Assembly: GCF_001029285.1 (NCBI RefSeq)
Contig: NZ_LDZY01000006.1
Location: forward strand, 248,001 to 312,000
Reading direction: 5' to 3'
Source of the DNA: Desulfosporosinus acididurans
Lineage (GTDB): Bacteria; Bacillota; Desulfitobacteriia; Desulfitobacteriales; Desulfitobacteriaceae
DNA length: 64,000 nt
Shown piece by piece: positions 1 to 54,830 of this stretch. Made by a program: the position numbers and the translations under genes. Position 1 is the stretch's first letter, and every line of letters begins with the position of its first letter. The notes under the pieces were generated by a model. The model ran no database searches, had not been told where the DNA came from, and worked only from the letters and a program-made list of their open reading frames with translations.

Positions 1-609
1 TTCAACGACCCCGAGATTCGGCACAAGGGTCGTGAAATGGTAATCGGCAATCTTGGGCTTGGCGGCCGAAACTTTAGAAATCAAGGTCGATTTTCCTACA
101 TTGGGAAATCCGACTAATCCCACATCCGCCAAGAGTTTCAATTCTAATCTCAGCCAACGTTCCTCGCCTGGTTCCCCATTCTCCGCCAGAGTAGGCGCTT
201 TATTCGTATTGCTCATAAAGCGGGCATTTCCCCGGCCTCCTCTGCCGCCGGCGGCAACAATCACTCGTTGTCCATGTTCCGTGAGATCGGCGATGACATT
301 CCCGTTGTCATCATCCAAAACTACCGTGCCCACGGGAACACGCAGAACGATATCGTCAGCGCTTTTTCCGGTCATATTCTTCGACTGCCCATGCTCGCCC
401 CGATCCCCTTTATAATGGCGTTTATAGCGAAAATCCACCAGAGTGCTCATGCCCTCGTCACCGACAAAAACAACATCGCCGCCCCGGCCTCCGTCTCCGC
501 CGCTGGGACCGCCTTCCGGCACGTATTTCTCTCGGCGAAAGGCGACAGCACCTGCTCCGCCGTCGCCTCCCTTAACATAAATCTTTGCACGATCATAAAA
601 TAACGACAT
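1..609 (-). CDS. obgE: GTPase ObgE/CgtA, N-terminal part (cut by window edge)
   Basis: Ribosome-associated essential GTPase of the Obg family, involved in 50S assembly and stress/sporulation control. The visible 203 codons begin [18 protein letters not shown] and hold the complete glycine-rich Obg fold (repeated GGxGG motifs) followed by the G1 P-loop GFPNVGKST. The gene runs off the left edge just after the switch-region motif [11 protein letters not shown], so the G3-G5 motifs and any C-terminal domain are outside the window. The start is fixed by conservation of MSLFYD and by a GGAGAA ribosome site. Its stop-side neighbours cannot be seen; upstream lies spo0B with only a two-base gap, so the two are almost certainly co-transcribed, as in Bacillus. 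Confidence 0.97.
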
Positions 610-40046: not shown

Positions 40047-43000
40047 TTAATTTACCTGAACCGTTATGAACAATACGGCGTTACTGCTACCTGGAGTGCT
40101 TCCATGCTTATAGGCAGAAATAATTGTCGTTCCGGCACTTATGGCATTGATCTGTGGTTTGCCGGTGGACGTTGAGATTGTTATGGTAGCTGCAGCTGGA
40201 TTACTGCTGTACCAATCGACCAGACCCGCCAGGTTAATCCAGCTTGTATCGACGCCTTTGACACTGATATCAAACTCCTTACTTTGTCCAACCGATAATT
40301 GAGTTGGAATTGTGCAAGTAATTTGAGATCGGATGGCAGCCAGGACGACTGCTTTCTCAGCGGCGTTAGATGGATCAATGATGGTTCCGAGCTGACGTTG
40401 GGCTTGTACTAACATATCAATATTCCAGCCAAGTGCCGGAAGCTTCGTAGCAAAGGTTGAATATTGACTGTTACTATTCGCAGCGTCTCTCATTGCTTCC
40501 TTAGTCCAGGCAACCATTTGGTCTTTAATCACTGTGTTGGAGGCACCGATTAGATCAAGTAAACTCGTACTTGAATTTGATATGACCGTAGGGAGTTCAT
40601 TCTTGGCTGCCAACAAGTAGCCGTAAACTTGGTCCATCGTGAAATCATTGCCGAAAAGAGCCCTGAATGTTGCGTGATTCTCAGACTTAAACTTATTGAG
40701 ATTGGCCTCGAATGTATCCCTGTCATCTGAATACTGTACCGTGCTCATGTCCTTCACAAACTGAATTAGCGCTGTTTTAGCTGTTCCTGCATCCGCAAAG
40801 CGAGCAGTTACCTGAGGCGTAAGAAGAGGATTTACTACACTGTCCCAGCGCTGATCGGTAACCGGAAGGGCATTAAGGGCATTTCTGGCACTCTTCAGTG
40901 AAGCTTTCTCTGCTTCACTCAGGTTGGCATACATGCTCATGACATCATCAATCAATTGATCTTCTGCTGCTGAAGATGCAGCATTAATGACAATCGTATA
41001 GGTTGTGGTTTTCCCGTCATACGTGATCGTCAACGTTTGAATGGCTGACGGGGTGGTACTGTCAAAACCTGTGACATTATTGACTGTTATCGGCTCAACT
41101 TTCGTGCTGCCGTCGCTGTAAGTTCCTGTGACGACAAGGCCTGAAATGTCCAGGCTCTCTCCCACTTTATAAACAAGTTTTGTCGCCGGTGTAGTAATGG
41201 AAATGCTTTCCAAGACAGCAACAGGAGCCGGTTTAACGGTGATGGTGTACGTTGCCGTTTTACCGCCAACAGTAATGGTCAAGGTTTCGCTGGCAACCGG
41301 AACCGAGCTGTCAAAACCGGTCACATTCTGAAGGGTGATGGTTTCCGTTTTAGTACTGCCGTCACTATAATTTCCTGTCACAACTAAGCCGGAAATGTCC
41401 AGGGGTTCTCCGACATAATAGACCGTCTTTGTTGCAGGAGCAGTGATGGTGATGCTGTTCAGAACGACTGGGGCCGCTTGGATTTGAACTGTATAGGTTG
41501 TGGTTTTACCCTCTATAGTGATGGTCAAAGTTTGGCTGGCAACAGGGCTTGAGCTGTCAAAGCCTGAGACATTCGCCGCTGTTACATTCATAACCTTCTT
41601 ACTGCCGTCACTATAATTTCCAGTCACGACTAAACCGTTAATATCCAGCGCGTCACCTACGGTGTAAACCAACTTAGTGGCCGGTGTTGTAATGCTGATG
41701 CTTACCAATACAATAGGATTTTTGGTAAACACTAAGGGTTTAGCGGCACTGGCCGGGAAGTTGGCAGTTGCTGCCAATCGTACCAGTACAGTTACATTCC
41801 CGCTGAGGTTCGGAGGAGTAACCGAGCTATACCTGAGATAAGTTGTCCCCCCATCGAGACTGTACTCCATGGTACTGTCAATACCTACAATGACATTGTT
41901 CGCATCATCAGCACTGACATTAGGCGCTGCAGGTGCCCCATTGGCAGGAATAGAAATTGTAATCGGAGAGCCCTGAATGCTGCCGACTTTCGTGGACGTT
42001 GGCGATGCACTTAAGGTGAGAACTAAATTTTGCTCTTTAGCTGTTTTTGTTACCGGTGTAAACGTGAACACGCCATTTGCATAATTCAAGTTTCCCAGAG
42101 TATAAGGAGTATTATTCAGCGCAGCTGAGAGGCTGAAATCAGCTTTCGTCAGAGAAGCTGAACCATTGCCGCTGAAGGTCAATGTTAACTGTCCATTTGT
42201 GGCACTCAGTCCTTTGACGTCAACGACTCTCTTTACACTTTGTGTTGCTGTGGAGGTCCATTTAGCCTTGTCAGTCGCCTTCACCGTTATTGTGTTATTG
42301 CCCAAACTTAAGGGGATATTGGAAAGGACAAAGTTCCCGGCAGTTTGCCCGCTCAATGTTGCGATTGGCGCTGCAGCATCGTTTACAAAAACTGCAACAT
42401 CCGCCGTTTCATCCAAGGTCCCTTGCACTTGAATTGAATCCGACTCTGTCGGATTTGCTCCAACGGTACACGTTAAAACTGGAGCCTTCTTGTCAATGCT
42501 GAACGTCAAAGACTGATTGGCAATTTTAATTGCCCCATCTGAAGTGACTTTCAGAGCCATGGCAATAAAGGCATAGGTATGCTGACTATCTTGATTACAG
42601 TGTGCAGTTTCGCTGCCGCCGGCTGCGCCAAGATTCCAGGCATTTGTTACAACGTTGTCTACCGTTTCGGTTAAGAATACCTGTTGAGAACTCGAAGCAG
42701 TAACGGTCACGTTTTGATCTTCCGTATAGGTTTGACCATTGCTGACGGCACTGAAACTCAGTAAGGGACTGCTGCTGTCCATGGTGAAGGTGACGGTTTT
42801 TGTCGTTGTATTTCCGGCCAAATCCGTAATAGATGCTGTTAAAGTATGCAGTCCTTCATTGGCAGCACTGTAAGTATAGGCGCCATTTGAACTGTTTGCC
42901 GTCTGGAGCGCACCGTCAATCTTAACCACTGGAGTTTGATTTTCATCGGACGTGACAACAATACTCAAGTCATTTGCATAGACCCCTCCGTCACTAACTC

Positions 43001-46000
43001 CAACGACATTCAAATTCGGAGATATGGTATCTTTCCGAACGATAAATGATTGGCTGGCTTCGTTGCCGAAGGAATCAATGGCATCAATAACAAAGTTGTT
43101 GTTGCCTTCACCAGGCAAATTGAGGGTTAACGAAGTATTGCCATTCTTCTGACCTACAGACTGGCCATTGACAAAGACTTCCGCATTCTCAGAGAGTTTG
43201 AAATCAAGCACAACTTTTTCTGTATTGGTGACAAAAATGTCTCCATCTTTGGCAACATACCCTTTCAACGAGACTGAACTAAACACCGGAGGTGCAGTAT
43301 CCACGTTAAAGGTTTTTCTGAGAGTTGTGCTGTTTTCAGCACTGTCTTCAGCGGTAATTTTTACTTTGTGCTGTCCATCCGCCAGATTTAGGGGAATATT
43401 AAAGGATTTCCCTTGAACATAGTTAGTCACCAGATCCGGTTGAGAAACGCCGTCAATTTCCACCTTTGTAATTGTTGCAGCAGGATCGAGGTCACTGACG
43501 GTACCTTCTAACTTCATCTCTCCTGCTTGTTTTGCAGCAGCATTGATCTGGATCAATGTGTTAGTGTTCGTAAAGTTAATTACAGGCGGTGTGCCGTCTA
43601 AAGCGGCCTGGTAATCGGAGAAGTTTTTCGTCTTCAGCCAGACATAGCCGGTATCAGACAGATAGTACCCTTCATCAACCACCATGGCGTTAGGATCGAA
43701 AGCACCGCTTGTCGTGCTGTGAATTACGATCGGCGCACCGATTGTTCCATCTTCACTGATATGGAAGAGGGTAACGCCCTTTAATCCCACTCCAACTAAA
43801 ATCTTCAGGGTGACAGGATTGATCGGTTTTTCGCTGAAGTTGAAAGACAAGGAGCCGCCAAGCAATTTATACGTAGAATCCCCGGCAAAGGTTCCTGTAC
43901 GTACTGTCATCTGGATTGCACTTCCAGTTGTGCTTCCCGTTTGACTAAAGGCATTGGCAGGAATGTCCAGCATAGCATTCTCACTAACTTGGACATTGCT
44001 TTGTGCCACAGCGGGCGGAATATAGTTGGAAGTCAAAGCCCCATTCCCTACATTTCCAGCCATATCAGTAGCGCTTAGATATAAGCCATTTGCTCCAACT
44101 TGCGGCGAAGGCGTCGTGATGACATAATTTCCGGCAGCATCCGGACCGGTAATATTTCCGGCCGAAATAGTTGTTCCATTATAGGTCGCAGTTAAACTCT
44201 TAACAGCTTCATTAACAGAGACACTGTAATGTGTGTCATCGACTATAGTTACCGCAAGAACAGGAGGTGTGCTGTCCAGCTTCAGGGTATAATCCTGCGG
44301 ACTACTCTCATTACCGGCATAATCTACGGTAACAAGTGTCAAAGAATTTAGACCTTCAGTTAATGGAACACCGTTGACACTGAACGTGCCGTCTTGGGCA
44401 ACGGTTCCTTCAGCCAAATCGACACCGTCTTTGCGAACAATAACAGTAGTGTCAAAGGGGTTTGCATCTCCGGCAGCCGCGGAAACCGTTCCGGTAATAT
44501 TTACAATTCCCGTCCGGACGGTACTTCCTGCCACAGGCGACGTTACCACAGGTGCAGAAGGTACTACACTATCGTAGTCAAAATCAAATGACATTAGACT
44601 GCTGAGATTCCCCGCTTGATCCTGAACTTGATAGGTTAGTCTGTTATGTCCCTGAAGCAGCTGATTGCCGCTAAGCGTGACAGTCCCTGAGTTATTAGTT
44701 TTTGGAGAGTTTTGGTTAAGAGTATACGTAATGGTTTCGCCGGCAGCAGCTTGTAATTGAATTGTTAAGTTTGCTGCTTTGAAGTATCCATTTTGTCCAT
44801 CGGGTGCAGCAGGATTTGTGATCAGGCTTACATCCGGTGGGGTGTTGTCCAGGATGATTGGTTGTGCCCAGGCAGATTTCTGCACATTCCCGGCTTTGTC
44901 CTTGGCAGTAATATTAAGCACGAGGTTGTCCAAATCTCCGCCGCCCGCGCTCCAGGTTCCTGTGAAGGTTCCATCCCCGTTCGCGGTCAAAGGAATGTCC
45001 CCGCTTATGGATCCAGACGGTGAATCAATACTGAAGCTCTGATTTTGCAATTTAGCATCCGTAATTGTTGCAGTTACGGTGACAGTATTTCCCGCTCGAA
45101 CATAAAGGGGTGCATTTAAGTCAGCTGATTGACCATCTTTGGCAACGCCGCTTAAGGTTACGGTTGGTGCAGATCGATCGACTGTGAACTGAATCGTCCT
45201 GGAATAGGACTGCCCTTGATATTGAGTCGTAACGATCAGCATATGGTCTCCGTCCCTTGTCGGAGCCGAGCCTGAGCTGAAACTGTTACCATCCAATGTG
45301 GCAGTCGTCGCATCGGTTAGGAGGGTCTCGCCAGCGTAGGCAGAGAAAGTGATTGTTGGCAGATAGTTGAGATACTGACCTTCAGTGACACCCGTTATGG
45401 TATTCGTTACCTTAAGTTTATCAATGCTGAAGCTGATCTGTTTCGTAGTCACGTTGCCGGCTGAGTCAGCTGCGGTAATGACAACAGTATAGTCTGTTAC
45501 AGCATTGTCTGCGCCGCTAAAGGGATATTGGCCATTAGGCGGTAACGGTATCTCATCGTTTTTATTTATTTTTAGAGACGTGTTACCTTCAGAAGCGTTC
45601 ACTTTCATCGTGACATCATCTCGGTAAGTAGTCCCATCTGTAATGCCAGTAACGGTAACTACAGGCGGGGTCTTATCAATGACAAACCTAATGAGCGGCG
45701 AAGTTCCTACATGAAAAGCTCCATCCGTCGTGGAGACTTGGAGGGTGTATGCCCCTTCGCCGGATATCGCATCTCCAATCGCGTAGGGAACTGTGGTGCC
45801 ATCCTTTGTAAGAACGGTCTGAGCGTTTGCTTTTAAAAGCGATTGACTGGCTACCGTATCGGTAAAGTTGATAACCGGAGTCACTGAGGTATTATAGCTT
45901 TTTCCATCTTGAACTCCTGTTACAGTTACCGTTGGGGCAGTTTTATCAATCCAAAACTGTATTGTTTTGTGGCTTGCAGCGCTCACATAGCTGGGATTCA

Positions 46001-49000
46001 GGGCATCTATGCTAATGGTATATTTGCCCTCTGTTGTCAACACAGGGATAGGATCACCTTGATGATAAACACCCTGTGCCTGGGGTCCTGTAAGGGTGGC
46101 TGTATAGGTGTAGTTAGCAAGATTGTTGCCGCCGTTTAAGGTGATCGCCGGACTAGCGCTCTCCAGAGCAGCACCATCTGTTACTCCGGCAATCGTAATA
46201 TCCGGAGAAGTAGTGTCCCAATCGATCGTAAAGCGTACGGTCGCCGACCCGATATTTCCTGCAGCATCTTGCACCGATGCTGTCACAGTATGTTGTCCGG
46301 GTTGTGTAATCGCTTGGCTGATGTCGAAAGGATTGCCGTCTAACAACACACTTGCACTTGCTGCAGCGGGCAGAGATATTCCGCTGTACGTAACGCTCAA
46401 GGACACTCCTGAATTTTGAATTATACTGTTGTCGGTTACGCCGTTTATTTGTACTACTGGAGAGGTTTTGTTAATAGTAAAGGAGAGATTAACCGATTGT
46501 GTTCCTGAAGTTATGGTCAGAGCATGTACCCCTTCACTCGCAATCGTCTTAGAGGCCACACCGGATCCAGTTACATCAGGGACACCTGTTTCCTTAATCG
46601 TAATCGGTTGATTATCACACATCGCTGTAACGGTGACTTCATGATTGATCACCGCTCCATCAGTGATACCGCTGACGATCAAAGCGCCTTCGGCAAATGT
46701 CGTAGCAGTAGCCAAACCGGAATTCAACGAATTGCCTTCCGCATTATAGGCAACCACATAATAACTGTGTGTGCTTTGATAATCCAAACCGGTATCGGTA
46801 TATCCCGTGGTAGTACTCGGGATGTTATCCTGAATTGGATTAGGATTATCATCACGATATAGTCTGTAACCCTCGGCGCCCTCCGAGGCACTCCAGTGGA
46901 TATTAATTGATGTTCCGCTGACTGGAGTTGCGGAAATAGAACTTGGGGCTGCTGGCGGGGCCGATTTAATTGTTACATCAAAATTAGCCGTGCAGCCATT
47001 TATGGTGACCGTTAAGGTAATTGCACCGGCTGTGGTACTGTTAAAACCAGTAATGTTATCCGATGTAACATCTATTTGGCTTTCCGTACCATTATTGTAA
47101 AGTCCCGTAACAACTAAACCTCTGATATCAAAATCATCACCTACAATGTAAGTTGTCTTAGTAGGCAGATGGTCGATCCGTATGCCCGTAAGCACTGGTG
47201 GTAAGGCCACAATTTTAATCGTGTAGGAAGTCGTCTTCCCATTAACCGTAATCGTGAGTGTTTGACTATCAACAGCCCTGCTGCTGTCAAATCCAGAAAC
47301 ATTCGCCGCAGTGATGGGTTCCTGTTTCTGTGTGCCGTCACTATAAGTCCCGGTCACAACTAAACCTGTGAGGTCCAGGTCTTCTCCGACATTATAAGTC
47401 AGCTTCGCGGCCGGACTGGTGATGGCTATGCTTTGTAACTCGGCTGGGGCCGGGTTAATCGTAATCTTAAAGGTGGTTGTTTTCCCATTAACCGTGATCG
47501 TCAGAACCTGGTTTGCTGCCGGGGCAGAACTGTCAAAACCCGTGACATTGGCCGCAGTAACAGCTATCTGTCGCTGGGCACCGTCACTGTATGTTCCCGT
47601 AACAACCAAACCTGTGAGATCCAGTGGTTCACCTACGGTGTAGGTCAGCTTTGCGGGAGGAGTGGTAACGGCAATGCTGTTCAGTACAACTGCAGATGAT
47701 CCTCCGCCTCCGCCGCCACCGCCTCCACCGCCTCCGGTTGTGCCTACATTTCCGCCTCCGGTTGTCGTGGAACCGGTCGTTCCCGGATCAAAATGCGTAA
47801 TAGATGAGGTTGGAGGAACTGTGATTTTGGCAGTATCCTTAGTAACCATGTTTTTCACGCTGCTATTGCTGCCCAGGACAACATTTGCTTTGGTATTTAC
47901 CGTAACAGCGTCAAAGTTGCCTTTCAGTGTCACCGTCTCTTCCGGATTGTCTGTCACTACCTCAAGGTTAGCTATCTTAGCGCCCGCTGCTGCAGTGACT
48001 GTTACTCCGCCCCCTACCTCGATAGCATCTGTAAAGGTCCCGATTAACTCGACGACGGGAGCAGCTCCGGGTGATTGAGACGAATACGTAATTCTAATCA
48101 TACCAAAGGAACCGTCCGAAGCTTCAAAACTTGCTGATGCTGAGGATTCAGTCCGTGTGATATTAGTACCTCCGGAGGCTACAATATGCACATTGGGACT
48201 GTTGCTCTGGTTACTTAATAATTCTGCGATGACGTCCACCAAGTTTATACTGTGCTCGCCGCCAGATAAAACTACGATGTTCGCAGCCTTGACGTTTTTT
48301 AAGGTTGCGCTGCCATTGTCTCCGGGATCTAAGAAAATTGTTCCATTAACTGTTACATTAGTCAGGCTGACATTGTCGCCTTGGACGTAAATACTGTAAT
48401 CAGTCTTGACATTTTTAACAGTTGCCTTGTTCCCAGTTACTCTAAGGATACCTGACAGCTGCTCTATGTTTGCAGGGTCTTCTGAGCCAATAGTTGAACC
48501 GTCTTGACTTAATGTTATAGAAGGTGCAAGCTCCTCCAAAACATTAGCAGGAACAACTGCTTTTCCTCCCAGGCCAATAACGTTGGATGACAGGTTAGCC
48601 AAGGCATAGTTTTTGCTTGCTTCCGGCAATGTTTTGCCGGTTAAAAGAATCACAGAATCGTTTTTAACAGCTAAGGGCGCGCCTGCCAAAGCATCGACCA
48701 GAGTATCACCATTGGCTACATAGGTATATTTGTTCTTGCCTGCTCCTGTAAAGTTTTTCAGGACATCAATATTTGTGTCATATTGCGTCTGTCCGGAGTA
48801 CCGTTCGACTGTTCCTGGAATTTGAGCTTTCACAGCATCATTGATTACTGCTGTTCCTCCGATTACATAAGTTTTCGAAAGATTACCCTTTATTCCATTT
48901 AAATAGTCTGAGACATAGCTCGACAAGGAAGCACCGCTGGTGTAAAGAATCGGCATACCTTGAGCACCCGCAATAGGTGCAATTGACAATGCATCTGAAC

Positions 49001-49538
49001 CTGCTCCGCCTGTTAAAACTACTTTCCCTATTTTCACTCCTTGATTTGCCATTTCTTTGGCAATATTCACGGAGGTCTCTGAAGCATCATAACCGCCTAG
49101 GGATACGACGTCGGTAACAGTCGGCACAGACTTAACTGCGTCAATGACACTTTGTTGAATAACCGCTAAACCGCTGGTAATATAGACTTTCTTGACTTTC
49201 AGGCGATTTAGTTCCTCTAAGGCATTTTTATTTAAGGCATTGCCTTCCGTTAACAAAATTGGAGCATTAAGTTTCGCTGCTAATGGTCCCGCGGCTAAGG
49301 CATCCATAAGATTTCTGGACATGCCGGCAGCTAAAATAGCGCAGTCCGAAGTTCCTGTCCACCCATTCTCGGCAATCTTGGCCGCTGTTTCATATTGGTC
49401 GAGACCATAGATGCTGGGGGGACCTGAAGCAGACTGAGTTACTGGTGCCGCTGCTGCCATTAATGGTGATATTGCATTAGCTAAGGTAAACCAAACAGCT
49501 AAACCAACACTTAGCAGCTTTCGTTTAGGTTTGTGCAC
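40047..49538 (-). CDS. Giant CWB2 surface protein with Big_3, FN3 and Ig-like repeats, 3163 aa
   Basis: Wall-anchored adhesin or S-layer-like protein. In order: signal peptide (to ~31); three CWB2 domains (~40-340); a beta-rich module shared with its neighbour (~350-590); a run of 12 glycines (~600-613); three Big_3 domains ('YTVGE.LDLTGLVVTG.YSDG', ~615-860); one fibronectin III domain (SSISATPVSGTSINIHWSAS, ~863-950); then ~1,600 residues of Ig-like repeats, many opening 'G.TDG..Y'. Three further Big_3 domains (~2610-2850), a helical region (~2855-3070) and a terminal Big_2-like domain complete it. GTG start after GAGGAG. One uninterrupted frame; ligand unknown. Confidence 0.93.
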   Translation of the reverse strand: MHKPKRKLLSVGLAVWFTLANAISPLMAAAAPVTQSASGPPSIYGLDQYETAAKIAENGWTGTSDCAILAAGMSRNLMDALAAGPLAAKLNAPILLTEGNALNKNALEELNRLKVKKVYITSGLAVIQQSVIDAVKSVPTVTDVVSLGGYDASETSVNIAKEMANQGVKIGKVVLTGGAGSDALSIAPIAGAQGMPILYTSGASLSSYVSDYLNGIKGNLSKTYVIGGTAVINDAVKAQIPGTVERYSGQTQYDTNIDVLKNFTGAGKNKYTYVANGDTLVDALAGAPLAVKNDSVILLTGKTLPEASKNYALANLSSNVIGLGGKAVVPANVLEELAPSITLSQDGSTIGSEDPANIEQLSGILRVTGNKATVKNVKTDYSIYVQGDNVSLTNVTVNGTIFLDPGDNGSATLKNVKAANIVVLSGGEHSINLVDVIAELLSNQSNSPNVHIVASGGTNITRTESSASASFEASDGSFGMIRITYSSQSPGAAPVVELIGTFTDAIEVGGGVTVTAAAGAKIANLEVVTDNPEETVTLKGNFDAVTVNTKANVVLGSNSSVKNMVTKDTAKITVPPTSSITHFDPGTTGSTTTGGGNVGTTGGGGGGGGGGGGSSAVVLNSIAVTTPPAKLTYTVGEPLDLTGLVVTGTYSDGAQRQIAVTAANVTGFDSSAPAANQVLTITVNGKTTTFKITINPAPAELQSIAITSPAAKLTYNVGEDLDLTGLVVTGTYSDGTQKQEPITAANVSGFDSSRAVDSQTLTITVNGKTTSYTIKIVALPPVLTGIRIDHLPTKTTYIVGDDFDIRGLVVTGLYNNGTESQIDVTSDNITGFNSTTAGAITLTVTINGCTANFDVTIKSAPPAAPSSISATPVSGTSINIHWSASEGAEGYRLYRDDNPNPIQDNIPSTTTGYTDTGLDYQSTHSYYVVAYNAEGNSLNSGLATATTFAEGALIVSGITDGAVINHEVTVTAMCDNQPITIKETGVPDVTGSGVASKTIASEGVHALTITSGTQSVNLSFTINKTSPVVQINGVTDNSIIQNSGVSLSVTYSGISLPAAASASVLLDGNPFDISQAITQPGQHTVTASVQDAAGNIGSATVRFTIDWDTTSPDITIAGVTDGAALESASPAITLNGGNNLANYTYTATLTGPQAQGVYHQGDPIPVLTTEGKYTISIDALNPSYVSAASHKTIQFWIDKTAPTVTVTGVQDGKSYNTSVTPVINFTDTVASQSLLKANAQTVLTKDGTTVPYAIGDAISGEGAYTLQVSTTDGAFHVGTSPLIRFVIDKTPPVVTVTGITDGTTYRDDVTMKVNASEGNTSLKINKNDEIPLPPNGQYPFSGADNAVTDYTVVITAADSAGNVTTKQISFSIDKLKVTNTITGVTEGQYLNYLPTITFSAYAGETLLTDATTATLDGNSFSSGSAPTRDGDHMLIVTTQYQGQSYSRTIQFTVDRSAPTVTLSGVAKDGQSADLNAPLYVRAGNTVTVTATITDAKLQNQSFSIDSPSGSISGDIPLTANGDGTFTGTWSAGGGDLDNLVLNITAKDKAGNVQKSAWAQPIILDNTPPDVSLITNPAAPDGQNGYFKAANLTIQLQAAAGETITYTLNQNSPKTNNSGTVTLSGNQLLQGHNRLTYQVQDQAGNLSSLMSFDFDYDSVVPSAPVVTSPVAGSTVRTGIVNITGTVSAAAGDANPFDTTVIVRKDGVDLAEGTVAQDGTFSVNGVPLTEGLNSLTLVTVDYAGNESSPQDYTLKLDSTPPVLAVTIVDDTHYSVSVNEAVKSLTATYNGTTISAGNITGPDAAGNYVITTPSPQVGANGLYLSATDMAGNVGNGALTSNYIPPAVAQSNVQVSENAMLDIPANAFSQTGSTTGSAIQMTVRTGTFAGDSTYKLLGGSLSFNFSEKPINPVTLKILVGVGLKGVTLFHISEDGTIGAPIVIHSTTSGAFDPNAMVVDEGYYLSDTGYVWLKTKNFSDYQAALDGTPPVINFTNTNTLIQINAAAKQAGEMKLEGTVSDLDPAATITKVEIDGVSQPDLVTNYVQGKSFNIPLNLADGQHKVKITAEDSAENSTTLRKTFNVDTAPPVFSSVSLKGYVAKDGDIFVTNTEKVVLDFKLSENAEVFVNGQSVGQKNGNTSLTLNLPGEGNNNFVIDAIDSFGNEASQSFIVRKDTISPNLNVVGVSDGGVYANDLSIVVTSDENQTPVVKIDGALQTANSSNGAYTYSAANEGLHTLTASITDLAGNTTTKTVTFTMDSSSPLLSFSAVSNGQTYTEDQNVTVTASSSQQVFLTETVDNVVTNAWNLGAAGGSETAHCNQDSQHTYAFIAMALKVTSDGAIKIANQSLTFSIDKKAPVLTCTVGANPTESDSIQVQGTLDETADVAVFVNDAAAPIATLSGQTAGNFVLSNIPLSLGNNTITVKATDKAKWTSTATQSVKRVVDVKGLSATNGQLTLTFSGNGSASLTKADFSLSAALNNTPYTLGNLNYANGVFTFTPVTKTAKEQNLVLTLSASPTSTKVGSIQGSPITISIPANGAPAAPNVSADDANNVIVGIDSTMEYSLDGGTTYLRYSSVTPPNLSGNVTVLVRLAATANFPASAAKPLVFTKNPIVLVSISITTPATKLVYTVGDALDINGLVVTGNYSDGSKKVMNVTAANVSGFDSSSPVASQTLTITIEGKTTTYTVQIQAAPVVLNSITITAPATKTVYYVGEPLDISGLVVTGNYSDGSTKTETITLQNVTGFDSSVPVASETLTITVGGKTATYTITVKPAPVAVLESISITTPATKLVYKVGESLDISGLVVTGTYSDGSTKVEPITVNNVTGFDSTTPSAIQTLTITYDGKTTTYTIVINAASSAAEDQLIDDVMSMYANLSEAEKASLKSARNALNALPVTDQRWDSVVNPLLTPQVTARFADAGTAKTALIQFVKDMSTVQYSDDRDTFEANLNKFKSENHATFRALFGNDFTMDQVYGYLLAAKNELPTVISNSSTSLLDLIGASNTVIKDQMVAWTKEAMRDAANSNSQYSTFATKLPALGWNIDMLVQAQRQLGTIIDPSNAAEKAVVLAAIRSQITCTIPTQLSVGQSKEFDISVKGVDTSWINLAGLVDWYSSNPAAATITISTSTGKPQINAISAGTTIISAYKHGSTPGSSNAVLFITVQVN

Positions 49539-50255: not shown

Positions 50256-51542
50256 TCATACCCTTCCGCTTCCGTCACAAGTTGGACAGGGCGCCGTATA
50301 GCGCACGGCTAAGGTCTGACCGACCTTCTTGCGGGTCATTTCCACCAAGCCAAGCTGAGTCAGTCCTAAAACCTGAGACTTTGTTTTATCTATGGCACAA
50401 GCCGCTTCTAAGGCTTCAATCACCTGCTGCTGATTTTCTTTCGCTTCCATATCAATAAAGTCAATAATAATAATTCCGCCCAGATTTCTCAGCCGCAGCT
50501 GCCGGGCAATCTCCCGAGCCGCTTCCAGGTTGGTATGAACGACAGTCTCCTCCAGAGAACGCTGCCCGACATATTTTCCTGTATTCACATCGATAACACT
50601 TAAGGCCTCTGTTTGCTGAATGATTAAATATCCGCCGCTTTTTAACCATACTTTCGAACGCAGGGCCTTACGGATTTCATCGTCAACCCCGTAACGGACA
50701 AACAAGTTCTCACCCGGCATAACAAAGATCCGCTTGGCAGCCGGATGTTCTATTTCCCGCAAAGCCTGACGCAAGATCTCAGCCGTTTCCTCCTGATCGA
50801 CGGTAATCTTCTCCACATCCTGATCAATCCAATCCCGAACTAAACGTGAAACCAGATCAACATCCTTATGTACTAATCCCGGGACAGAGACATGGGGAAT
50901 TTTATGTTCCAGAGCCTGCCAAGCCGTCACCAGATGACCAATATCTTCAGCAATATCCTCACCATCAATTCCTACTGCCAAGGTGCGAACAATCACACCC
51001 ATTCCTTCAGGTTTGACCTTCTCCGCCAAATCCTTCAACCTTGCCCGTTCCTGCGCATCGGTAATCTTCCGCGACACCCCGACATAACTCACCTGAGGAA
51101 GAAGAACAACATACCTCCCCGGCAGCGTCAAGTTAACACTAATCCGGGCCCCCTTCGTGCCCACAGGTTCTTTAGTAATCTGAAGCAAAAGTTCCTGACG
51201 AGGCTTTACGATGTTCTCAATCCGCTCTTTAATCACCGAAGAACCCTTTTCCTCATCCTCAAAACGAGAAGGGGAAGGAATAGCATCACCAACATAGAGA
51301 AAAGCATTCTTCTCCAAGCCAACATCAACAAAAGCCGCCTGCATCCCGGGCAAAACATTCTCCACCCGCCCCCGGTAAATATTCCCCACCAAATGGGAAG
51401 AATCACCCTCATCCTCAAAGACATCCATCAATTCACCATGCTCAAACACAGCCGCCCGAATCCTTTGAGATTTAGATTTCGTTAATTGTTCACTTTGAAG
51501 AACCAGTTCCTTCTTACAGCCCCCCGAGCTTTCAAGTTTCAT
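50256..51542 (-). CDS. rng: Ribonuclease G/E family endoribonuclease
   Basis: Single-strand RNA endonuclease for rRNA maturation and mRNA decay. ~428 aa with an S1-like domain (HLVGNIYRGRVENVLPGMQA, then FVDVGLEKNAFLYVGD), the RNase H-like/5'-sensor core (GARISVNLTLPGRYVVLLPQ), the catalytic metal site GGIIIIDFIDM and the Zn-link CPTCDGSG at the extreme C-terminus. ATG chosen by fit to the family N-terminus; GGAGG is 12 bases upstream, slightly far. In many related genomes rng directly precedes rplU; here they are separated by the accessory region. Confidence 0.93.
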   Translation of the reverse strand: MKLESSGGCKKELVLQSEQLTKSKSQRIRAAVFEHGELMDVFEDEGDSSHLVGNIYRGRVENVLPGMQAAFVDVGLEKNAFLYVGDAIPSPSRFEDEEKGSSVIKERIENIVKPRQELLLQITKEPVGTKGARISVNLTLPGRYVVLLPQVSYVGVSRKITDAQERARLKDLAEKVKPEGMGVIVRTLAVGIDGEDIAEDIGHLVTAWQALEHKIPHVSVPGLVHKDVDLVSRLVRDWIDQDVEKITVDQEETAEILRQALREIEHPAAKRIFVMPGENLFVRYGVDDEIRKALRSKVWLKSGGYLIIQQTEALSVIDVNTGKYVGQRSLEETVVHTNLEAAREIARQLRLRNLGGIIIIDFIDMEAKENQQQVIEALEAACAIDKTKSQVLGLTQLGLVEMTRKKVGQTLAVRYTAPCPTCDGSGRV

Positions 51543-51715
51543 AGATTGATTACACCTCCCCAAGAAAACTTGCGTTACAACGCTCACCGTCATGATCTCG
51601 TGGGCCACTCTATCAAAGAGGCTCCCTCTTGTAAGCGCAAGTTCTAAGCTAATTCTGCCCCCAGCGTCTCTAATAGGAATACAAGCAAGAATGCCAGGTC
51701 GCCATCCGAGCTACA

Positions 51716-51938
51716 GCGAGGGGCGCGATCACCGGCGTGAAACCTTTGCGGGAGCCGCTTGCCAAAAACTCGGCTTTAAATTCGCTTGCATACAGCAGGG
51801 CGGGAAACAGGACGTTTCCCGCCGGCCTTGCGACAGGACGTCGCATAGGCCGGGCACCCTGCCCTCTTCCATCAAGAATTTAAAGCCCTAGTTTGGCCGG
51901 CTCACGCATGGTTGAACAAGGTGACGCGCCACTCGCTC
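51716..51938 (-). ncRNA. Structured element, copy 1
   Basis: Self-complementary from end to end: the outer stem uses GCGAG.GGCGCG / CGCGCC.CTCGC, with a mid stem GGCTTTAAATTC / GAATTTAAAGCC. Two inner hairpins follow: GGCGGGAAAC-aggac-GTTTCCCGCC and TGCGAC-aggac-GTCGCA. Orientation is unknown; it would be co-transcribed with the flanking minus-strand genes. Whether it acts as RNA or as DNA is inference. Confidence 0.5.
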
Positions 51939-52016
51939 CCCAGCAGGACCCGCAACACAGCCCACTACTCAGCGAGCCCCAATAGGAATACCCAAACGTT
52001 GCGCGCCCAAGCTTCA

Positions 52017-52240
52017 GAGCGAGGGGCGCGATCACCGGCGTGAAACCTCTGCGGGAGCCGCTCGCCAAACTCGGCTTTAAATTCTCATGCATCCGGCAGG
52101 GCGGGAAACAGGACGTTTCCCGCCGGCCTTGCGTCAAGGATGACGCATAGGCCGGGAACCCTGCCCTCTTCCATCAAGAATTTAAAGCCCTAGTTTGGCC
52201 GGCTCACGCATGGCTGAACAAGGTGACGCGCCACTCGCTC
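52017..52240 (-). ncRNA. Structured element, copy 2
   Basis: Same fold as copy 1 with better pairing: GAGCGAG.GGCGCG.TCACC / GGTGA.CGCGCC.CTCGCTC outside, then GAGCCG/CGGCTC, GCCAAACT/AGTTTGGC and GGCTTTAAATTCT/AGAATTTAAAGCC. The inner hairpin reads TGCGTCA / TGACGCA, a compensatory A-T to T-A change (plus one added pair) relative to copy 1. Confidence 0.5.
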
Positions 52241-52266
52241 CCCAGCAGGACCCGCAACACAGCCCA

Positions 52267-52968
52267 CTACTCAGCGAGCAACTCAAACGGCGAACTCTTC
52301 TGCCCCTGATAACTCACATGCACACCCGTCCTCTTAACCCGCAAATTATCCAAATCAAGCGGCAAATTCTCCAACTCCCGGAGACTGCCCAGAACTTCCT
52401 CCGGCCGAACGCTGCCCGCGTTCCCCATCTCAACTTCCAATTCAAAGACAACCTCATCACCCTGAATATTCCCCGTTAAACTCTTCACCCAAGGCCGAAT
52501 ATCCTTATCGGTCGGTCCCTTCTTCGAATAGCGGGAAAACGTCACATGCTCCCGAGCCAGCCAGGCCTGCAGCCCTTCTTGGAGTCGATCCTCCTGAATC
52601 GGCAGAGCCATAGGAACACGCATCCGGTAACTCGCCGCATTCAAAACAGCCATCAACGGTTTGGCTCCCGTCGTCAGAACTTGGCCTTCCAGAAGCCGGA
52701 TTCCCGAAGGCAATTGTTCCTGAATACGTCCTAAGACATCTCCCAGCTCCAGTCCCCGTTCCAGATCAATATCCACATATTCCCGTTCCCCTTCTGTTCC
52801 CACCGCTAAAGCAAAACCGAAGGAGATTTTGGGCCGGGGATTAAAACCTTCTGTATAAACCATTCTAATCCCTGCCCGCCGAATTGCCCGCTCAAAGACC
52901 CGAGTTAAATCGAGATGAGCAATAAACTTAGCATCTTCTTTTTTGGTATAGGCGATTCTTAGCCGCAT
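52267..52968 (-). CDS. TIGR03936 family radical-SAM-linked protein (DUF2344)
   Basis: 233-aa protein of unknown function always found next to a TIGR03960-type radical SAM gene. It begins MRLRIAYTKKEDAKFIAHLD, with the family motif RAGIRMVYTEGFNPRPKISF. No metal-binding motif of its own. It starts within a few bases of the upstream radical SAM stop, so the two are translationally coupled; ATG preferred over a GTG three codons earlier. Its last codons form the edge of the duplicated structured element. Confidence 0.92.
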   Translation of the reverse strand: MRLRIAYTKKEDAKFIAHLDLTRVFERAIRRAGIRMVYTEGFNPRPKISFGFALAVGTEGEREYVDIDLERGLELGDVLGRIQEQLPSGIRLLEGQVLTTGAKPLMAVLNAASYRMRVPMALPIQEDRLQEGLQAWLAREHVTFSRYSKKGPTDKDIRPWVKSLTGNIQGDEVVFELEVEMGNAGSVRPEEVLGSLRELENLPLDLDNLRVKRTGVHVSYQGQKSSPFELLAE

Positions 52969-52973
52969 GGCAC

Positions 52974-54830
52974 TCACCCTTTCAAATCAATCTGAACTCC
53001 TCTGCCCGGGCAAATACCACACCCAGTGCAGACATCATACCGACAATCAATGGTTCTCGCTTCCTGCAGCGCCCGATGATGCTCTTCAACCAAGAATTGT
53101 TTCGTTACACCACTTTCTAAATGGTCCCAAGGCAGGATATCATCATAATCCATAGCCCTGTTGGCATAAAACTTAGGATCGATGTCCAGTTCCTTAAATC
53201 CTTCCATCCAAGTCTCTTGGTCAAAATGTTCAGACCAACCATCAAAACGGCAGCCATGTTTGTACGCCCATTCCAAAAGCGGAGCTAAGCGCCGGTCTCC
53301 CTTGGCAAAAACGGCTTCCATATAGCTGGTCTCCATGTCATGGTAATTATATTTTATGCGCCGATCCCTAAGTTTCTCTTTAAGATATTTCTGTTTCAGC
53401 TTAACGGAAAGATGTGACTCCTGAGGTTCCCACTGAAAAGGGGTATGCGCTTTAGGAACAAAAATACTGGTCGAAACCGTCACATTCACATTGCGACGCC
53501 CATTCTGAGTTCCCAGATTAGCTACTTTTTTAGCCAAATCTGCAATCCCGTCAATGTCTTCCTGGGTTTCCGTAGGCAGTCCCATCATAAAGTAAAGCTT
53601 AATGTTGGACCAGCCTTTTTGGAAAGCAGCCTCTACGGCGGCCAGCAGGTTTTCCTCGGTAACGCCTTTGTTAATCACATTGCGCAAACGCTGAGATCCG
53701 GCTTCCGGAGCAAACGTCAAACCTGATTTGCGGCTTTTTTGGATGGACTCAGCGAGATCCACATCAAAAGAGTCAACTCTCAGAGAAGGCAGGGAAACCC
53801 CCACTCCTTCACAGCTATGCTTTTCCATAATGGACTGAATCGTCGGCTGAATACAGGTATAATCTCCACTGGAAAGTGACGTCAAAGCAATTTCATCATA
53901 CCCTGTGGAGCGTACCAGTTCCTCCGTCTGTTTAAGGAGAGTTTCTGTCGATCTCTCCCGTACAGGCCGATAAATCATGCCCGCTTGACAGAAACGACAG
54001 CCCCGGGAACAACCGCGCATGACTTCCAGCATCATCCTGTCATGAACAATTTCCATATAAGGGACAATAGGTTTCGTCGGGAAAAAGGCTTTGTCGAAGT
54101 CTTCCACGATGGCCTTTTCTACGACAGCCGGAACACCGGGCTCCGCCTTAATCTCCTCAATCCGTCCGTCCGGCTTATAGGATACATGGTAGAAATCCGG
54201 AACATAAACCCCTTGGACTTGGGCCACTCGCAGCAAAAACTCCCGGCGCGGCAGAGGGTGTTTCTTCTGCTCAGCAATCAGACGCAGCACTTCCGGCAAT
54301 TGCTCTTCGCTTTCACCCAGTAAAAAGAAATCAACAAATCCGACCAGAGGTTCAGGATTAAAAGCACACGGTCCCCCGGCAATAATCCAGGGATCCTCCT
54401 CTTTACGTTCTTCACAGCGCAGAGGAATACCTGCTAAATCAAGCATATTAAGAATGTTGGTAAAACTCATTTCATACTGCAGTGTAAAGCCGATAACATC
54501 AAAGGCTTGCAGCGGCTGAAAGGATTCGAGGGTATAAAGAGGAAGCTTCTTTTGCCGCAGCATTTCCTCCATATCCACCCAGGGAGCAAAAACCCTTTCA
54601 CAGAGAAACTCCGGAAACGAATTTACCAAATGGTAAAGAATCTTAGTTCCCAGATGGGACATTCCTACTTCATAGACATCCGGGAAAGCAAAAGCCATGT
54701 GCACCTCTGTTTTATCCCAGTCCTTTTTTATCGCGTTCCATTCCGAACCCAGGTAACGGCTTGGTTTCAAAACTTTAGGCAAAAACATTTCTACCTGCCG
54801 GCGAAGCTCCGCCGCAGTAAGTTCACTCAT
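52974..54830 (-). CDS. TIGR03960 family B12-binding-domain radical SAM protein
   Basis: 618-aa radical SAM enzyme of unknown substrate. An N-terminal B12-binding-like domain (AFPDVYEVGMSHLGTKILYH; FDVIGFTLQYEMSFTNI) is followed by the SAM/4Fe-4S motif RGCSRGCRFCQAGMIYRP (CxxxCxxC, residues ~275-285). A C-terminal cysteine set (DCRYDVCTGCGICPGRGV) suggests an extra Fe-S cluster. Paired with the TIGR03936 gene and part of the conserved block preceding rng. Confidence 0.93.
   Translation of the reverse strand: MSELTAAELRRQVEMFLPKVLKPSRYLGSEWNAIKKDWDKTEVHMAFAFPDVYEVGMSHLGTKILYHLVNSFPEFLCERVFAPWVDMEEMLRQKKLPLYTLESFQPLQAFDVIGFTLQYEMSFTNILNMLDLAGIPLRCEERKEEDPWIIAGGPCAFNPEPLVGFVDFFLLGESEEQLPEVLRLIAEQKKHPLPRREFLLRVAQVQGVYVPDFYHVSYKPDGRIEEIKAEPGVPAVVEKAIVEDFDKAFFPTKPIVPYMEIVHDRMMLEVMRGCSRGCRFCQAGMIYRPVRERSTETLLKQTEELVRSTGYDEIALTSLSSGDYTCIQPTIQSIMEKHSCEGVGVSLPSLRVDSFDVDLAESIQKSRKSGLTFAPEAGSQRLRNVINKGVTEENLLAAVEAAFQKGWSNIKLYFMMGLPTETQEDIDGIADLAKKVANLGTQNGRRNVNVTVSTSIFVPKAHTPFQWEPQESHLSVKLKQKYLKEKLRDRRIKYNYHDMETSYMEAVFAKGDRRLAPLLEWAYKHGCRFDGWSEHFDQETWMEGFKELDIDPKFYANRAMDYDDILPWDHLESGVTKQFLVEEHHRALQEARTIDCRYDVCTGCGICPGRGVQIDLKG

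Follow-up and report, generated by a model that had tools for sequence, protein, structure and literature searches.

Two tandem palindromes between a TIGR03936 family gene and an rng-like gene

The window analysed here is a stretch of 64,000 nucleotides from the 4.64-Mb genome of Desulfosporosinus acididurans (G000:C6:248001-312000). On its minus strand lie a gene for a TIGR03936 family radical SAM-associated protein (52267-52977; NCBIfam score 204.8 bits, cut-off 71.9) and, downstream in the mRNA, an rng-like RNase E/G gene (50256-51608; TIGR00757, 446.7 bits) with a probable start at about 51541, preceded by a Shine-Dalgarno sequence at about 51555. Between them, following the TIGR03936 gene, we found the two copies of about 302 bp that a sequence-only reading of this DNA had reported, as direct repeats on the plus strand at 51676-51977 (copy 1) and 51978-52279 (copy 2), with a spacing of 301-303 nt and block identities of 93-97%. 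That reading also held that the unit had captured the 3' end of the neighbouring gene, and the end of the TIGR03936 gene (GCTCGCTGAGTAG) is indeed repeated, the final bases of copy 2 being the 3' end of the gene itself. Coding content is limited to short chance open reading frames. The GC content is about 60%, compared with 46-50% over most of the flanking DNA. The earlier description of the composition as clearly unlike the flanks holds mainly on the rng side, because GC declines gradually toward the TIGR03936 gene.

Each unit is a single long palindrome composed of an outer stem, an inner stem of 12-13 bp and a two-hairpin head. The palindrome proper spans 51715-51937 in copy 1 (plus strand, outer stem AGCGAGGGGCGCGATCACC .. 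GGTGACGCGCCACTCGCT) and, by sequence and fold, 52018-52241 in copy 2. Repeat comparison showed that the inner 13-bp stem, GGCTTTAAATTCT, which encloses the head, is perfect in copy 2 (52073-52189, arms 52073-52085 and 52177-52189) and reduced to 12 bp in copy 1. The head hairpins, previously predicted for this structure, lie at 51799-51823 and 51824-51851 in copy 1, both with the CsrA-type loop ACA-GGA-CGT, and at 52100-52124 (loop ACA-GGA-CGT) and 52125-52153 (loop CAA-GGA-TG) in copy 2, where the fold agrees with the sequence.

A comparison of this junction in 24 genomes identified the remnant of a second element, related but lacking its head, in the rng leader (51567-51644, minus strand, arms AACTTGCG..GCAAGTT), just upstream of the rng Shine-Dalgarno sequence; congeners carry this second element with a full GGA head. 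In six of them (L102, L103, L108, L113-L115) this GGA-headed relative, in the opposite orientation, constitutes the rng 5' leader and is a possible autoregulation leader of rng. Also next to rng, on the minus strand at 40047-49538, lies a gene for a putative secreted protein of 3163 amino acids with repeated domains.

Folding and covariation of the palindrome

Copy 2 folded better than every shuffled sequence on both strands (z = -8.5 on the plus and -9.8 on the minus strand), and the whole unit folded as DNA was likewise unmatched by any shuffle (z = -12.1/-10.7), bearing out the long single structure proposed from the letters. From congeners we gathered 98 copies and aligned 52 non-redundant cores. 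Across these cores a 50-pair structure is paired in 94.6% of the cells, and 25 pairs show double changes in 129 cells, a level reached by none of 500 shuffles and nowhere near attained by slid controls. One of the 25 is the compensatory A-T to T-A change already noticed in the second head hairpin (TGCGTCAAGGATGACGCA in copy 2, TGCGACAGGACGTCGCA in copy 1). Single-side standard changes are rare in the same cores, outnumbered by double changes, and on the plus strand G-U (31 cells) is not in excess over A-C (39 cells). An assignment to the plus strand, based on an early hand count of G-U and A-C on a 42-pair alifold structure, was abandoned when the asymmetry disappeared with the fuller structure.

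Since A-C is as common as G-U and single-side standard changes are rare, these data do not demonstrate strand-specific RNA selection. The covariation is strong, but the earlier conclusion that it implies selection on structure goes too far, because template-directed perfection of a DNA palindrome would give the same pattern. It is a serious possibility, though we consider it less likely than not, that the compensatory changes reflect DNA-level palindrome correction by template switching, with no RNA function at all; the surplus of double over single-side changes and the symmetrical G-U and A-C counts fit this explanation, which nevertheless leaves the constancy of the unpaired GGA loop letters across divergent families unaccounted for.

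Relation to the TwoAYGGAY family

Both window copies align over the full length (model positions 1-168, plus strand) of TwoAYGGAY RNA, Rfam RF01731, a motif described by Weinberg et al. in 2010 (PMC2864571), with 40.0 and 36.6 bits (E = 6e-5 and 4e-4) against a cut-off of 43. Two sibling copies in the same genome, at C15:5041-5200 and C6:140967-141115, reach 50.3 and 43.8 bits. The element had been called undescribed-looking, which is only partly right because the siblings exceed the RF01731 gathering score, while the window copies themselves stay below it. Like TwoAYGGAY RNA, the element has a long outer stem, an internal loop and two adjacent hairpins with ANGGAY loops inside that one stem, both GGA hairpins being present in 72 of 81 plain copies; it differs in being a GC-rich unit of about 300 nt with tandem copies and nested loop modules, bound to gene 3' ends in a fixed orientation. 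A covariance model built from the genus independently recovered TwoAYGGAY genomes (G071, G118, G145, G156, G179 and G189), and an exact-pattern scan for the head hairpin gave 44 matching stretches, every one of them from Desulfosporosinus. On its minus strand, the head also resembles Bacillaceae-1 (RF01690), which shares two GGA-loop hairpins on the complementary strand, but this match is sub-threshold (31.2 bits, cut-off 35) and Bacillaceae-1 has no long outer stem. In the open-access literature we found no account of these repeats in Desulfosporosinus.

TwoAYGGAY is catalogued as an RNA motif and not as a dispersed repeat. In distant Bacillota, however, we counted at least 17 matches in the richest genome, and the copies of other Bacillota are nearly identical within a genome, intergenic and of mixed orientation, with terminal inverted repeats that are clearest in G178. 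A single sRNA gene does not fit these observations, and the evidence favours a new view of TwoAYGGAY as a dispersed palindromic repeat. Judged from these matches, the window pair probably belongs to this widespread family of folded DNA repeats.

Copy number and placement behind genes

The search of related genomes with a covariance model proposed in the sequence-only reading yielded homologues: 363 matches in 29 of 30 Desulfosporosinus genomes, 0-50 in each (50 in G004, none in the single-contig genome G016) and 8 in the present genome, with the window copies matched at 51754-51902 (128.3 bits) and 52057-52204 (144.5 bits). A restriction to the region near rng, suggested by the local clustering of a first search, was discarded when the model found copies elsewhere, and chance or an assembly artefact is excluded by orthologous copies at the same junction in many congeners.

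A consistent placement, new to this analysis, emerged from these copies. By crude ORF calls on non-independent copies, 83 of 95 have the gene on their plus-strand 3' side encoded by the opposite strand, which places the element downstream of a gene in a uniform orientation; merging orthologues by hand left a bias of about 33 to 9 (p = 3e-4). Also new is the fusion of the stop codon of some 20 different genes to the GGAGGGTC end of the element, with stop and GAGGGTC 0-3 nt apart, as in mraY (TAG-GGAGGGTCC). Empty sites were seen in congeners at mraY and at the rng junction. G003 has 'TAG GGAGGAAAC', the mraY stop codon followed directly by the Shine-Dalgarno sequence of the next gene, where G004 and G012 have 'TAG GGAGGGTCCGCG'. 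Between TIGR03936 and rng, spacer length varies from 69 nt, where the site is empty, to 1224 nt, and as many as three copies stand there in tandem. The empty sites at this junction (69-101 nt) are those of G020, G026, G016 and G024, and some species carry other hairpin families there instead. Many element sites are common to several species, and only presence/absence attests to recent movement of the large element. Fixing of the orientation by replication was not supported, as in G007 both orientations occur inside a stretch of some 20 kb. At four loci (L049, L058, L024 and L062) partial right ends of the element are stacked beside the stop codon, as if successive copies had been inserted and deleted at one point.

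In its terminal inverted repeats (GAGGGTCGCG..CGCGACCCTC), its GAGGGTC inverted-repeat ends and its lack of coding capacity the element is MITE-like. REPs are palindromes of 20-40 bp that carry an unpaired GTAG or CGTC tag at their foot, and REP/BIME and REPIN units are mobilised by RAYT transposases. The element resembles them as a non-autonomous palindrome with many dispersed copies, mostly downstream of coding regions, but at about 220-300 nt, with GGA loops, GAGGGTC ends and no known transposase, it is not a REP in the strict sense. An exact target-site duplication could not be fixed for the 300-nt element; GG at both ends was found only for the small modules described below, and no parent transposon was found.

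Placement of this kind raises the possibility, tentative in our judgement, that the element is a cis-acting 3'UTR or intercistronic structure comparable to REP/BIME, which would stabilise the upstream mRNA or attenuate transcription or translation of rng. Its fixed position behind stop codons, its orientation bias and its retention between TIGR03936 and rng across much of the genus point that way, and known REPs are also found mainly downstream of coding regions (PMC3733652). Against it, the same junction lacks the element or holds unrelated hairpin families in ten genomes (G020, G026, G016, G024, G002, G021, G014, G028, G025 and G001), and the genes adjoining the element, ordinary chromosomal ones, have no evident common function.

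Nested modules in GGA loops

Extra head sequence is present in 15 of the 98 gathered copies, mostly as modules inserted in GGA loops. A clear case, likewise new here, comes from the orthologous rng element of G018 and G019, in which a 53-nt double hairpin is inserted exactly in the second GGA loop of one and a clean empty site is seen in the other. Where a module copy occupies a GGA loop and both of its flanks are intact, GG stands at either end and the orientation is always the same: GG precedes the module, NNC-GG follows it at the parental GGA, and its own GGA loops lie on the opposite strand. The exception is L144, where GGG replaces the parental GGA. Some 53-nt modules occupy hairpins of hosts other than the element (L140:11961, L138:15542 and L138:15624), and two further kinds of insert lie inside the module's own loops (L083; L059/L061/L093).

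Among the mraY 3' ends (L210-L236), those of several congeners (for example L212, L215, L225 and L228) carry a second, unrelated palindrome family (GGAGGAAGTTTCTTAGC...GCTAAGAAACTTCCTC), which begins at the same base behind the stop codon as the element does and is itself nested with other hairpins.

A speculative reading, to which we give limited credence, is an undescribed insertion mechanism shared by several unrelated Desulfosporosinus hairpin families (this element, the second mraY palindrome, the 53-nt modules and the inserts that the modules themselves contain). In this reading each of them inserts directly 5' of GGA, whether this belongs to the GGAGG of a stop-codon/Shine-Dalgarno junction or to the GGA loop of a different hairpin. 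When the element or a module is the insert, its own GGA loops and the GGA at the target are on opposite strands. If insertions truly target GGA loops and Shine-Dalgarno junctions, the targeting rule would be unusual. A single machinery acting in trans would then have to recognise GGA, perhaps through the pairing of loops on single-stranded DNA or RNA, and nested hairpins would grow in Russian-doll fashion.

The CsrA question

Even in divergent families the loops remain close to C-A-(N)-GGA-Y-G, and they are mostly kept when the stems change. Gardner and Eldai (PMC4333381) reported CsrA motifs in TwoAYGGAY and in the reverse complement of Bacillaceae-1, the same strand logic as in the window element, and proposed CsrA sequestration. 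A csrA gene is present in this genome (G000 C6:20777-20932, E = 2.2e-25) and in 25 of the 30 genomes of the genus. Among 398 Bacillota, genomes with TwoAYGGAY nearly always encode CsrA (49 of 51, against 236 of the 347 genomes that lack it; p = 3e-6 with no phylogenetic correction), a co-occurrence first noted here, and within Desulfosporosinus the median number of element copies is 12 with csrA and 1 without.

These data lend genome-scale support to the CsrA idea, in which the plus strand would be transcribed and its paired GGA hairpins would bind a CsrA dimer, as in CsrB/RsmZ-type sponge sRNAs, whose hairpins also expose ANGGA (PMC7366521). The loops match the CsrA site, several hairpins expose ANGGA, and RMfam predicts the motif for the family (PMC4333381). 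A simple sponge is, however, hard to reconcile with the orientation and the number of the copies. In 53 of 95 copies the element is antisense to both neighbouring genes, and read-through therefore makes the UCC strand; a consensus scan at the window locus found no plus-strand promoter or terminator, and there are up to 50 copies per genome, whereas CsrB/RsmZ-type sponges are single-locus genes. Moreover, the plus strand shows no excess of G-U over A-C, G016 has csrA yet no copy, and the co-occurrence may reflect lineage or genome type. Weakened by the antisense placement and the copy number, a CsrA-sequestering RNA seems to us unlikely.

A probable mobile palindrome as the best explanation

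The sequence-only reading had left the choice between a structured RNA and a palindromic mobile repeat; as a modular element it was right in outline, and the evidence favours the repeat. We consider it probable that the pair is a locally duplicated, non-coding, gene-free palindromic repeat of the TwoAYGGAY family, REP/MITE-like and with CsrA-type loops. Copy number, placement 3' of genes, orientation, nesting, empty sites and covariation are observed directly, as is the two-hairpin GGA-loop head that the element keeps. Such an element would spread through a putative enzyme supplied in trans and acting at GGA-containing sites, namely the stop codon/Shine-Dalgarno junction for whole elements and GGA loops for modules, and after landing it could duplicate by recombination. 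Its GGA loops may be conserved as a match to the CsrA site, as a cue read by the mobilising machinery, or as both. Locally, a folded 3'UTR or intercistronic spacer is a more likely effect than CsrA binding, because the read-through mRNA predicted at this locus carries the complementary UCC-loop strand; the strong covariation and loop conservation could still mean an RNA function.

An attC-like site or single-strand transposon end of the integron or IS200/IS605 type, that is, a recombination site and not an element, is highly improbable: the folded imperfect palindrome in fixed orientation behind ORFs and a stretch near the C15 copies that reads like part of an IS200-type transposase (L039) recall one, but the neighbours are ordinary chromosomal genes, there is no integron array, and inspection of the element showed no attC core.

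Since 2010 TwoAYGGAY has stood in Rfam as an orphan "RNA", and CsrA sequestration is an unvalidated prediction for it. Once it is viewed as a dispersed, nested palindrome tied to gene ends, the questions become what mobilises it and why a CsrA site persists in its loops, and concrete insertion and empty sites are now available for tests.

Fungal and algal mitochondrial double-hairpin elements are comparable as small GC-rich double hairpins; here the setting is a bacterial chromosome and insertion is in GGA loops. Other repeats occur in the genus as well: at the rng junction of G007 and G011 (L113, L115) short double hairpins (GGGACATGCTTCGTGCATG-TGCACCATCTGAATCGGTGC) are arrayed in tandem between TIGR03936 and rng, and GGGGACGGTTCTT / AAGAACCGTCCCC inverted repeats recur intergenically across the genus (L222, L232, L233, L235 and others).
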